Assembly (NCBI GenBank): GCA_947649225.1
Contig: CANSQX010000005.1
Location: 1 to 46,059, forward strand
Direction: 5' to 3'
Length of the DNA: 46,059 bases
Origin: an uncultured Flavonifractor sp.
Lineage (GTDB): Bacteria > Bacillota > Clostridia > Oscillospirales > Oscillospiraceae
Position 1 is the first letter of the stretch. Each line of letters begins with the position of its first letter. A program made the position numbers and the translations under genes. This document shows, one piece after another, positions 6,853 through 39,911 of this stretch. The notes below the pieces were generated by a model. It saw only the letters and a program-made list of their open reading frames with translations. It had not been told where the DNA came from and did not search any database.

Positions 6853-6940
6853 TCTTTTGGTCCTTTGCCCCAAGGGGCTAGGAATCCCTAACGCGTACGC
6901 TTCGCGTTTGCGAAGGGCTTCCCATCTTTCAAGAAAAGGA
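6853..6940. repeat. Dispersed repeat, copy 2
   Basis: It reads GTTCTTTTGG, TTTGCCCCAAGGGGCT, an imperfect palindrome around CTTCGCGTTTGCGAAG, and ends CTTTCAAGAAAAGGA directly against the livJ stop codon at 6941. It shares block order with copy 1 at 746-835 and its end with copies at 25441 and 42406. Confidence 0.6.
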
Positions 6941-27955: not shown

Positions 27956-27997
27956 CGCCCCCAGAAGCTCCGGCGGAACCCGGAGCCCCTGGGGGCG
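27956..27997 (-). terminator. Hairpin downstream of the flavoprotein gene
   Basis: CGCCCCCAG (27956-27964) pairs with CTGGGGGCG (27989-27997), and inner CTCCGG/CCGGAG extends the stem. On the minus strand GTTTTCAC follows. It lies about 150 bases past the flavoprotein gene, beyond the nested palindrome. Confidence 0.65.
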
Positions 27998-28021: not shown

Positions 28022-28149
28022 AGCGCCTATCCCGAAATCAGACGTGCGCCGGTTGCGCCGTCAGTTTTTGCGCCCGGCAAGAAAAACCAACGCAGTATGG
28101 CGCAAAAGACGCAGGCGCACTGTGTGCGGATTATGGGGGGATAGGCGCT
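28022..28149. repeat. Nested palindromic element A
   Basis: Outer 12-base arms (28022-28033 and 28138-28149), middle GTGCGCC/GGCGCAC (28044-28050 and 28114-28120) and inner TTTTGCGCC/GGCGCAAAA (28066-28074 and 28099-28107) are all perfect and nested. The whole 128 bases can fold into one long cruciform or RNA. Its right end touches the flavoprotein stop codon. Confidence 0.75.
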
Positions 28150-29084
28150 TACTTCTCCGGACGGCTGGGGGTGATGAACGCCTTGTACCTGGCCATGCGC
28201 TGCTTATAGGCGTCGGTGGACTTGATGGCCATGGCGCGGCCCTCGTTCTCCCGGATGTCGTCGGCGTGCATGAACTTGCCGGACAGGGTATCGTGGGCGT
28301 GGGCGATCTGCTCCTCGGGGAAGACGAAGGAGAGCTTGCCGTCCTCCACCTTGATCGCGCCCTCGATGCCGCACAGGCAGCAGATGGCCTTGCCGGCGTC
28401 CTGGTCCAGGTAGAAGTTGCGGCTGTGGCAGTGGGGGCAGACCCCGGGCTCGCCCTTGTACTGGGCGTGCTCGATGTCCCGGGCGGCCTCCACCAGGTTC
28501 CGTCCGATCTCCCGGACCCGGGCGATCTTGTCGTCCTCCATGATGATGGTCTTGGACCAGGAAAACACGTCGTTGTCGATGATCTTCCACATGGGGGTCA
28601 GGGCCTGCATGGCCATGGAGCACTGGATCCGGGTCGCCCAGTCGGATCCGCCGATGCCCACATAGGAGACCACCTTGTCGGTGAGGAAGCGGGGGTCGGG
28701 CACGGGGTTGCCCTTCTCCTGGGCCATCTTGGTGCCGATGACGTTCATGCCCCGGTCCATGCGGGGGCCAAAGCGGTCGGTGATGGTGTGGAACAGGCCG
28801 CAGGCGGTCTTCTCGAAGATGGGGACGGACCAGAAGATGCCGTCGGCGTCATAGCAGCGGTCCAGCAGCCAGTTGAAGTCGTCCTTCAGCGCACAGCGGT
28901 TGCCGTTGCCCATCACCAGGGACCGGGAGCAGGCCACGCAGCCGGTGCAGTGCTTGATGTCCAGGTCCATGGCGTGGATGAACTCCACCTCGGCTCCCAT
29001 ATCCTGGGCGACCATCAGCACCTCCTTGCACATGGCGTCGTTGCTGCCGTCCCGGCTGCCCAGGGAAATGGCCAGAATTTTCAT
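28149..29084 (-). CDS. NADPH-dependent FMN reductase/iron-sulfur flavoprotein-like, with zinc ribbon
   Basis: A 311-residue protein with a flavodoxin-like N-terminus (MKILAISLGSRDGSNDAM, the FMN phosphate loop). A cysteine cluster HCTGCVACSR lies near residues 45-54, as in flavoproteins of the iron-sulfur type. A four-cysteine zinc ribbon (CPHCHSRNF and CCLCG) lies near residues 215-235. It probably reduces a small substrate or metal; the substrate is unknown. GGAGGAGG lies eight bases before ATG 29084. The LysR gene upstream on the same strand probably controls it. Confidence 0.82.
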   Translation of the reverse strand: MKILAISLGSRDGSNDAMCKEVLMVAQDMGAEVEFIHAMDLDIKHCTGCVACSRSLVMGNGNRCALKDDFNWLLDRCYDADGIFWSVPIFEKTACGLFHTITDRFGPRMDRGMNVIGTKMAQEKGNPVPDPRFLTDKVVSYVGIGGSDWATRIQCSMAMQALTPMWKIIDNDVFSWSKTIIMEDDKIARVREIGRNLVEAARDIEHAQYKGEPGVCPHCHSRNFYLDQDAGKAICCLCGIEGAIKVEDGKLSFVFPEEQIAHAHDTLSGKFMHADDIRENEGRAMAIKSTDAYKQRMARYKAFITPSRPEK

Positions 29085-30108: not shown

Positions 30109-30195
30109 GCCGCATCTCCCTCCTCTCCTGCCGCTTTTCTCCAGTATAGCAAAAAACCGCAGAAATTCCAACCGGAAAAACCTTTTTCGTAAAAG

Positions 30196-30231
30196 CCGGG
30201 AGGCCCTTCGCAAACGCGAAGGGCCTCCCGG
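30196..30231 (-). terminator. hppA terminator
   Basis: A perfect 16-bp stem (30196-30211 with 30216-30231) has loop AAAC and, on the minus strand, is followed by CTTTTACG. It lies 16 bases past the hppA stop. Confidence 0.88.
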
Positions 30232-37104: not shown

Positions 37105-38598
37105 TCACTGCCCGCCCAGCTGGGCGACGCCCTGCCGGATGCGGCGGAGGGACTCCTCTTTCCCCAAAATATGGCACAGCTCCACCGCGCCGCCCGGGGT
37201 AACCGCCTTGCCGCTGAGGGCCGTGCGCACCGGCCACAGGATCCGGCCGTTTTTCAGCTCCAGACGCTCCGCCAGGCCGAGGAGGGCGGCATGGAGGGCG
37301 TCATAGGTCCACGGCTCCAGGCCCTCCAGCACGGGCAGAACCGCCTGGAGGGCCTCCAGGGAGTTCTCCTCGTTGGTCTTCATCTTCTTGTGGCGGTAGA
37401 GCTCGTTGGAGTAGGCCGGCAGGGCGTCGAAGAAGTCCACCTGGGGGGCGATGTCCCGCCAGGTGTCGCACCGGGGCTGGACCAGGGGGGCGATGAGGGA
37501 CAGGTCAAGGCCCGGGGTTTTCACCGCCTCCCGCAGGCAGGGCTCCGCCCCCGCCAAAAAGTCCTCCGGGGAGAGGGCCCGCAGGTAGCTGGCGTTAAAA
37601 TATTTCAGCTTCTCCAGGTCGAAGATGGCGGGGGACTTGGAGATCCCGGCCACATCGAAGATCTCCGCCAGCTGGGGCAGGGTGAAGAACTCCTCCTCGC
37701 TGTGCTCCCCCCTGGGGGACCAGCCCAGCAGGGTCACGTAGTTGACCACCGCCTCGGACAAAAAGCCCATGGCCAGCAGATCCTCATAGGAGGGGTCCCC
37801 ATGGCGCTTGGACATCTTGTTGTGCTGGTCCCGCATGACGGGGGAGCAGTGGATATAGGTGGGGACCTCCCAGCCGAAGGCCTGGTAGAGCAGATTGTAC
37901 TTGGGGGCGGAGGACAGGTACTCGCTGCCCCGCACCACGTGGGTGATGCCCATCAGGTGGTCGTCCACCACGTTGGCAAAGTTATAGGTGGGCAGGCCGT
38001 CCGACTTCATCAGGATCTGGTCGTCCAGGGCGGCGTTCTCCACGGTGATGTCCCCGAAGACCGCGTCGGAGAAGGTGGTGGTCCCCTCCCGGGGGATCTT
38101 CTGGCGGATCACATAGGGCGTCCCGGCGGCCAGCCTGGCCTCGATCTCCGCCTGGGGGAGATCCCGGCAGTGGCCGTCGTAGCCGCCCGGGCCGTCCGCC
38201 CCGTGGAGGGCTTCCAGCCGCTCCTTATCACAGAAGCAGCGGTAGGCAAAGCCCTTCTCAATGAGCAGATCGGCGTATTTTCCATAGAGATCCCGGCGCT
38301 CGGTCTGAATATAGGGGCCCACGGGGCCGCCCACGTCGGGGCCCTCATCCCAGGTCAGGCCGCACTTGCGCAGGGTAGCGTAAATCACATCGGCCGCATC
38401 GGCCACCAGCCGCCCCTGATCGGTGTCCTCGATGCGCAGGAGAAAGGTCCCGCCGCTGTGGCGGGCGATGAGCCAGGTATACAGGGCGGTGCGCAGATTG
38501 CCCACGTGCATATAGCCGGTAGGCGAGGGCGCAAACCGGGTGCGGACCTTTCCCCTGGGGATGCGGGCCTCCATCCCGTCAAACCATTGCTTGTCCAT
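37105..38598 (-). CDS. gltX: Glutamyl-tRNA synthetase
   Basis: A 497-residue class I synthetase that charges tRNA-Glu. RFAPSPTGYMHVGNLRTAL holds the HIGH-type motif, and NKMSKRHGD is the KMSKS-type loop. The zinc-like cysteines YRCFCDKE and the C-terminal anticodon-binding helices are present. ATG 38598 has AAGGAGGAG seven bases upstream; the frame continues upstream but lacks a site. No T-box leader is present (leader of about 34 bases). In this lineage Glu-tRNA may also be made into Gln-tRNA by GatCAB; not visible here. Confidence 0.97.
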   Translation of the reverse strand: MDKQWFDGMEARIPRGKVRTRFAPSPTGYMHVGNLRTALYTWLIARHSGGTFLLRIEDTDQGRLVADAADVIYATLRKCGLTWDEGPDVGGPVGPYIQTERRDLYGKYADLLIEKGFAYRCFCDKERLEALHGADGPGGYDGHCRDLPQAEIEARLAAGTPYVIRQKIPREGTTTFSDAVFGDITVENAALDDQILMKSDGLPTYNFANVVDDHLMGITHVVRGSEYLSSAPKYNLLYQAFGWEVPTYIHCSPVMRDQHNKMSKRHGDPSYEDLLAMGFLSEAVVNYVTLLGWSPRGEHSEEEFFTLPQLAEIFDVAGISKSPAIFDLEKLKYFNASYLRALSPEDFLAGAEPCLREAVKTPGLDLSLIAPLVQPRCDTWRDIAPQVDFFDALPAYSNELYRHKKMKTNEENSLEALQAVLPVLEGLEPWTYDALHAALLGLAERLELKNGRILWPVRTALSGKAVTPGGAVELCHILGKEESLRRIRQGVAQLGGQ

Positions 38599-38638
38599 GG
38601 TGCAGCTCCTCCTTATCAAACAACAGGCTGTGCCTGTC

Positions 38639-38668
38639 ATTGTAGCGTTCCAAGGTTAGGATTGTCAA
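38639..38668 (-). promoter_or_regulatory. gltX promoter, overlapping the trpS promoter
   Basis: On the minus strand TTGACA (38663-38668) and TACAAT (38639-38644) are 18 bases apart. The -35 shares five bases with the trpS -35. Confidence 0.8.
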
Positions 38669-39746: not shown

Positions 39747-39911
39747 AGGCCTTGTTTGAAAATTGGCGAAACGGCCAACGGCGAGAGAGCTTTTCGCCCG
39801 GCAAGGCAAAAAATCCGCAGGAATACCTCGTGTAGTTCAAAGGATTTTTAACGTAGCAGGTGGGAAAAAGGTCCGCCGCCTGGCCGTTTTACATTTTTTC
39901 GCACAAGGCCT
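39747..39911. repeat. Nested palindromic element B
   Basis: Outer AGGCCTTGT/ACAAGGCCT (39747-39755 and 39903-39911), middle AAACGGCCA/TGGCCGTTT (39769-39777 and 39881-39889) and inner AAAAATCC/GGATTTTT (39809-39816 and 39842-39849) are perfect and nested over 165 bases. The core CTTTTCGCCCGGCAAG resembles TTTTGCGCCCGGCAAG in element A. It lies between trpS and the TagO-like gene. Confidence 0.75.

Follow-up and report, generated by a model that had tools for sequence, protein, structure and literature searches.

A nested palindrome of 128 bases ends on the stop codon of a flavoprotein-like gene in an uncultured Flavonifractor sp. (contig CANSQX010000005.1), and the question raised by this locus is whether the palindrome belongs to the gene, as a terminator or a structured RNA, or is a mobile element that has come to rest behind it. 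A sequence-only reading of the whole 46,059-nucleotide stretch analysed, hereafter the window, had described three perfectly paired arm sets at 28022-28149, directly at the stop codon, and had offered two guesses, a small mobile element of the MITE kind or a structured RNA; its proposal was to fall if no related genome held a second copy and no compensatory base changes could be found. The features of the palindrome and of the element that we describe below, element A, are as follows.

28022-28033 and 28138-28149: outer arms, AGCGCCTATCCC and GGGATAGGCGCT, 12 bp, perfect, nested
28044-28050 and 28114-28120: middle arms, GTGCGCC and GGCGCAC, 7 bp, perfect, nested
28066-28074 and 28099-28107: inner arms, TTTTGCGCC and GGCGCAAAA, 9 bp, perfect, nested, in a region that spans the site of a putative deletion of about 33 nt
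28023-28148, plus strand: element A, 126-bp member of a mobile family, apparently a deletion derivative of a form of about 160 bp
28023-28043, plus strand: left TIR of A, type GCGCCTATCC, a variant of GAGCCTATCC
28128-28148, minus strand: right TIR of A
28044-28127, plus strand: core of A, 84 nt, matched by our covariance model R1 at 55.6 bits, E 2.5e-12

The arms are as regular as described: there are 28 nested paired bases per side of A, a number reached by none of 298 random 128-nt stretches of the window (median 7, maximum 23), and the RNA fold of the region has an energy of -64.5 kcal/mol (z -3.1), with 1 of 200 shuffles as good. The contact with the stop codon is exact, because the last arm base, 28149, also opens TTA 28149-28151, with which the flavoprotein-like gene on the minus strand ends (stop codon TAA). 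The core of A is 84 nt long compared to 117 nt in the full-length copy on contig C133 of the same genome, and the absent part, about 33 nt, falls between short direct repeats (GCGCCGGACAAG and ACGCCCGGCAAG) of full-length copies, suggesting that an internal slippage deletion turned the full-length form into A. Elsewhere in the window, a 38-nt inverted repeat pair (6900-6937 and 30184-30221, 87% complementary, with a CTTCGCGTTTGCGAAG core) lies near the 3' ends of two minus-strand genes and is possibly another small dispersed repeat or a shared terminator.

Second copies exist. Element A used as a query found partial copies on three other contigs of its own genome, and among 60 genomes searched, its own included, two others held copies (8 matches in G029, 15 in G030). 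The copies read with their flanks start GAGCCTATCC, finish GGATAGGCTC and are mostly 157-163 bp long, with length variants of 55, 108, 121, 126 (element A), 199, 217 and 223 bp, and their anatomy is a TIR of 21-24 bp, an imperfectly palindromic core of about 118 nt and a second TIR. The 3-mers to the left and right are the same, mostly TAA/TAA or TTA/TTA, in 29 of the 43 copies of A's TIR type, compared to a mean of 15.8 and a maximum of 26 in 10,000 shuffles, which reveals a TWA target duplication. Element A itself shows no such duplication, either through loss or from the start, as its left flank is CGA and its right flank TTA. At E<=1e-3, R1 matches 45 places in the own genome (G000) and 116 in G030. 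The 126 bp of A, with no transposase gene, lie within the size of prokaryotic MITEs (about 50-500 bp), and the family has the other marks of that class, which are TIRs in common with an autonomous element, a target-site duplication and many dispersed copies. Because an exact 20-mer in the left half was the starting point for part of the copy collection, conservation there partly reflects how the copies were chosen; this does not affect the right half or the genome counts made with R1. A sequence from Sedimentimonas (L116) that has this 20-mer without the rest of the element was taken as chance. Some copies (L101, L115, L087, L120, L134 and L131) have an additional hairpin, or some other repeat-like insert, inside the element, and the family is therefore modular inside too. 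Neighbouring elements are also found in pairs, within about 50-160 bases of each other (L245 1590-1868, L281 1596-1877, L259 1577-1973); those in L245 and L281 differ in TIR type, and the L245 pair abuts at a common CTAG.

The gene behind which A lies, and the sequence on the far side of A, can be described by three further features.

28149-29084, minus strand: flavoprotein-like gene, 311 aa, FMN_red family, with a weak C-terminal zinc-ribbon match
28149-28151, minus strand: stop codon TAA of this gene, identical with the insertion target TTA at the right junction
27956-27997, minus strand: G+C-rich hairpin followed by TTTT, seen in the sequence; with fewer than five T it received no score in the terminator search

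The naming of the neighbour as a flavoprotein is borne out as flavoprotein-like by a Pfam match to FMN_red (E 9.5e-12). Its orthologues in G033 and G030 (60 and 59%) align to residues 310 and 309 of 311, share the same C-terminus and terminate in TAA, and R1 finds no match in the 3,960 bases of the G033 locus or the 3,957 bases of the G030 locus. The common C-terminus and TAA of these element-free orthologues place A at the native stop of an FMN-reductase-like gene. The downstream sequences of the two orthologue loci are unrelated, the comparison being one between species and not within one. The position directly behind a stop codon and the strong fold are what one would expect of an intrinsic terminator or a REP-like hairpin of the flavoprotein gene, yet we consider this reading very improbable and reject it because of the dispersed copies with unrelated neighbours, the TIRs and the target duplications; the relatives in which the gene lacks the element also speak against it. 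A G+C-rich stem followed by a run of T in the direction of the gene is not what A contains, as the one weak terminator match is plus-strand and runs against the neighbouring genes. The separate hairpin and T tract at 27956-27997 is probably the terminator of the flavoprotein-like gene, which now lies beyond A on its far side.

How an element without a transposase might move is suggested by insertion sequences (IS) that end as it does. A 917-bp IS (L150) in the genome of Bacterium 1XD42-1 has AGAGCCTATCCC(G/A)AAAT at both ends, TAA flanks and two overlapping transposase reading frames that both match NCBIfam IS5_3; the right end of a second IS (L159) is like it, and the TIR of the L150/L320 IS is the same as that of A's type. 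Other element TIR types are fitted by the IS ends in L168 (GAGCCTGTTTAAAA), by those in L148 and L151 (CTTGTTTGAAAAAT), and by the IS in L169, which has ends TAAACACTGATTAATTC and a single-frame IS5_4 transposase. The agreement, judged by eye, is limited to about 16-20 terminal bases and no part of the core is seen in the IS ends read, so the family does not belong to the class of IS deletion derivatives: its interior is not derived from an IS5-family IS. No partner was found for four of the eight tabulated TIR types, nor was an IS5-type element with a fitting TIR found in G029 or G030. The window's own genome gave no PF01609 or PF13340 match for an IS5-type transposase, which counts for little because this assembly is 80.7% complete in 157 contigs. 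IS5-type elements with the TIRs GCGTCGTCAATAAA, TAGATAGTGTCTAC or GGTAGTGTTCACATAA fit no element type; one with the left end GGTAGTGTTCACATAA is present in high copy at contig ends throughout Bacterium 1XD42-1 (L323-L339, G060), behind TTA or CTA.

The copies lie between genes and are often found at stop codons. As counted with a home-made, unvalidated gene caller, on 63 copies from G000 and G030 and 53 of a second set (after removal of duplicate or weaker matches and of copies truncated at contig ends), none of 116 copies lies inside a called gene and 33 have a stop codon exactly at the junction (19 of the 63 and 14 of the 53). If the motif sites between genes and those at stops are taken together, the elements themselves counted, stops make up 4-8% for TWA and 4-15% for YTAR; the use of stops is therefore about twice what the motif predicts, or more, through either a preference of the transposase or the survival of such insertions. 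Some copies lie upstream of genes. The orientation relative to the abutting stop is strongly biased in G000 and G030 (16:3, that is, 16 of 19 with the stop at the right end) but not in the second set (6 right, 8 left), so we claim no consistent sense strand and no longer count this bias towards an RNA role.

The window holds a second member of the family.

39747-39911, plus strand: element B, TIR type GGCCTTGTTTGAA, core at 39771-39887

It had been noted that A and B have a short core sequence in common. The 11-mer CGCCCGGCAAG does occur in both (at 28071 in A and 39795 in B), but with one mismatch allowed it is found 3 times in the window where 3.25 are expected, and we rejected it as proof of kinship; the kinship itself stands on R1, which was built without B and finds its core at 33.8 bits (E 1.4e-6). 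A weak R1 match at 38489-38543 (12.9 bits, E 0.41), where the exact sequence GTGCGCAGATTGC occurs, is probably chance; it overlaps a minus-strand open reading frame (37105-38640).

Beyond the window the family is widespread, as judged by different E limits at different ranks. At E<=1e-3, R1 matches at least 191 of 400 genomes of the window's family, in 70 of 106 genera, with at most nine candidates scored per genome, and about 140 of the 191 reach E 1e-6 or better by a hand count. At E<=1e-6 the matches are in 37 of 295 genomes from the order, in nine families, and in 3 of 299 phylum genomes, namely the window's own, one of its family and one outside the order (G643). This last match (L242, G643:C71:17116-17234, E 1.9e-7) has palindromic flanks, and possibly reflects horizontal transfer or misbinning. 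Plasmid and phage collections gave no match and a viral collection one contig.

The most unusual property of the family is that the same core of about 118 nt carries at least seven sets of TIRs, several within one genome. Besides GAGCCTATCC, the two best-read genomes have the types GAAGCTGTAT, GAGGGTGTCTTCAA, GGCCTTGTTTGAA and GAGCCTGTTTA, and elsewhere the same core is found with the ends GTAAGCGCTGATTAATTC (goat omasum Clostridia), GGAAGCACTGATTAAATC (Ruminococcus), and GGCAATACCGCATAAT and relatives. When 152 non-redundant copies were compared with eight TIR patterns, one of the patterns matched both ends of 98 copies, and 54 copies remained without a fit; the distance from the start of the TIR to the core has a median of 21-23 bases in seven of the eight types, the eighth being one copy with 18. 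Two copies of G029 (L219 and L229) have cores that are 87% identical and different ends (GAGCCTGTTTA and GAACCTATCC), compared to a median core identity of 75% among copies with GAGCCTATCC ends. A core tree (89 cores, 120 columns, a quick search with many open forks) requires 14 type changes among 64 typed rows of seven types, where the minimum possible is 6, and its well supported branches force at least 5 changes for the GAGCCTATCC type. The tree and the pair in G029 thus indicate that TIR types are clustered but exchanged. As the core is not part of the IS and bears at least seven TIR types, its lineage has gone through several changes of ends and, with them, probably of helper transposase.

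In order to address whether the core is kept as a folded strand, we aligned 32 diverse cores without the use of structure (alignment A1) and designed a structure for them from the folds of these sequences. This structure pairs 88.2% of cells, compared to 77.6 +- 0.7 in shuffles and 26-46% with slid partners, and 151 cells are changed on both sides compared to 61 +- 7.5; two further measures on A1, the pairs with change on both sides and the pair types, do not exceed the shuffles. R1, built from A1, gathered 95 matches in 86 sources (alignment A2, which is fitted to R1 and so leans to the model, and whose 95 rows include two antisense matches of copies already there, L184 and L109). In A2, 37 of 38 pairs change on both sides (93 distinct sequences), 669 cells are changed on both sides compared to 190 +- 18.5, the covariation score is 0.544 compared to 0.204 in shuffles, and all five covariation measures exceed all 500 shuffles. 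The compensatory base changes whose lack was to count against the earlier proposal are therefore present. Two positions inside the fold are conserved as unpaired, an A-G at columns 10/148 (39 of 50 rows, 2 of them Watson-Crick) and a G-A at columns 59/95 (38 of 49 rows, 3 Watson-Crick), and a GA/GA inside the palindrome is present in 24 of 53 rows. Covarying stems together with conserved mismatched loops make a specific fold, and the folded strand, be it RNA or single-stranded DNA, is therefore probably under selection.

These data bear on two other accounts of the core. The arms of quasipalindromes are homogenised by templated repair, and the symmetry might be kept at the level of DNA only, with template switching and hairpin repair perfecting the palindromes and producing compensatory changes without any selection on the fold. 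Whole stem blocks that are swapped between relatives, for example between G030 and Oscillibacter copies, are in keeping with such repair; yet the internal loop mismatches and wobble pairs, which repair should erase, are conserved across genera, and the core measures 117-121 nt in 65 of 74 distinct cores, so that we hold this account to be rather unlikely. On the pattern of the alignments, selection that acts on the single strand folded in this orientation would be more likely than palindrome repair alone, although this is not proof of RNA. The other account goes further and would make the core primarily a structured RNA, a 3'-UTR element or a small RNA used by the host, which transposition merely spreads. 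It would explain the covariation far above controls, the A-G and G-A positions that never turned palindromic, and the reading strand, on which G-U pairs outnumber A-C (255 compared to 65) and five pairs are mostly G-U with none mostly A-C. However, the G-U excess shrinks to a modest 71 compared to 42 in A1 when the G-U-majority pairs are left out, the orientation to stops found in G000 and G030 does not hold in the second set, copies lie upstream of genes too and no promoter-like match was found within A. Rfam gave no match at the gathering score in 6 loci, and only chance-level matches at the window locus. The guess of a structured RNA thus survives in its first part, the fold, which the covariation and the conserved loops support, and not in the RNA role, for which there is neither a consistent orientation nor an Rfam family; as the primary nature of the core we judge it unlikely.

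The mobile-element guess has fared better. In its support, the element recurs within its own genome and those of relatives, it has TIRs, the family shows target duplications and IS5-family partners, and relatives hold the gene without it. We therefore regard A as very probably a MITE, a non-autonomous transposable element, whose superfamily is found in gut bacteria of the Oscillospiraceae type and which would be moved via IS5-family transposases. These transposases, supplied in trans, would recognise the TIRs, and insertion would take place at short T/A targets, TWA for A's type. Stop codons (TAA/TAG) fit such targets and are a frequent landing site, which would explain why A starts exactly at a stop codon. 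More tentatively, and with somewhat less than even confidence, we propose that the evolving unit is the folded core of about 118 nt, a structured single strand, selfish or of use to the host (RNA, or DNA in replication or transposition), which would spread through the order by repeated change of its 21-24-bp ends and so recruit successive IS5-family transposases, while selection keeps the stems, the A-G and G-A mismatches and the apical loop.

A single IS that moves many unrelated short passengers is familiar. In the open-licence literature we found no description of one passenger core whose fold is retained as its ends give way to others that suit different transposases, and no description or name of A's family, a negative that is weak because it covers open-licence texts only. 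Mosaic non-autonomous Tn3-type elements have different cores between like ends (PMC4133298) and are the reverse of A's family, which has like cores between different ends. The IS5-family IS themselves (NCBIfam IS5_3 and IS5_4) have the 16-20 terminal bases and the T/A-rich targets in common with the family, but the element has no transposase and the IS ends read have nothing visible in common with the core. Closer likenesses, all of them compared by description, are found among the small repeats of other bacteria. The Correia/NEMIS elements of Neisseria, as PMC2229807 and PMC10969869 describe them, are likewise non-coding, intergenic and about 100-155 bp long, with TIRs, target duplications and strongly folding transcripts; they differ in the phylum of the host, and A's family has several TIR types per core that fit the IS5 family, and 3-4-bp T/A-rich targets. 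BOX and RUP of Streptococcus pneumoniae are, in what PMC3049150 says of them, MITE-like repeats of high copy number for which RNA structures are predicted and whose TIRs resemble a resident IS; BOX is modular inside (boxA-B-C), whereas A's family exchanges its ends around a constant core, across an order. ERIC of the enterobacteria, a 127-bp intergenic palindromic MITE of the RU-1/ERIC class (PMC2229807, PMC10969869), is also found at the 3' ends of genes, and A's family differs from it in having IS5-family partners with the same TIRs.

As this family is common in the genomes of an order, it lets one ask whether selection acts on the folds of MITEs, and on which nucleic acid, by what route TIRs are exchanged, and how many of the insertions directly behind stops affect mRNA ends in gut bacteria; R1 also provides a practical means of annotating a so far unnamed repeat. 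By analogy with what these sources describe, its anatomy and behaviour would place it with MITEs of the ERIC, Correia and RUP kind (PMC2229807, PMC10969869, PMC3049150). As a MITE it is ordinary; what makes it unusual is its breadth, the strictness with which fold and length are kept and, most of all, the exchange of its ends.
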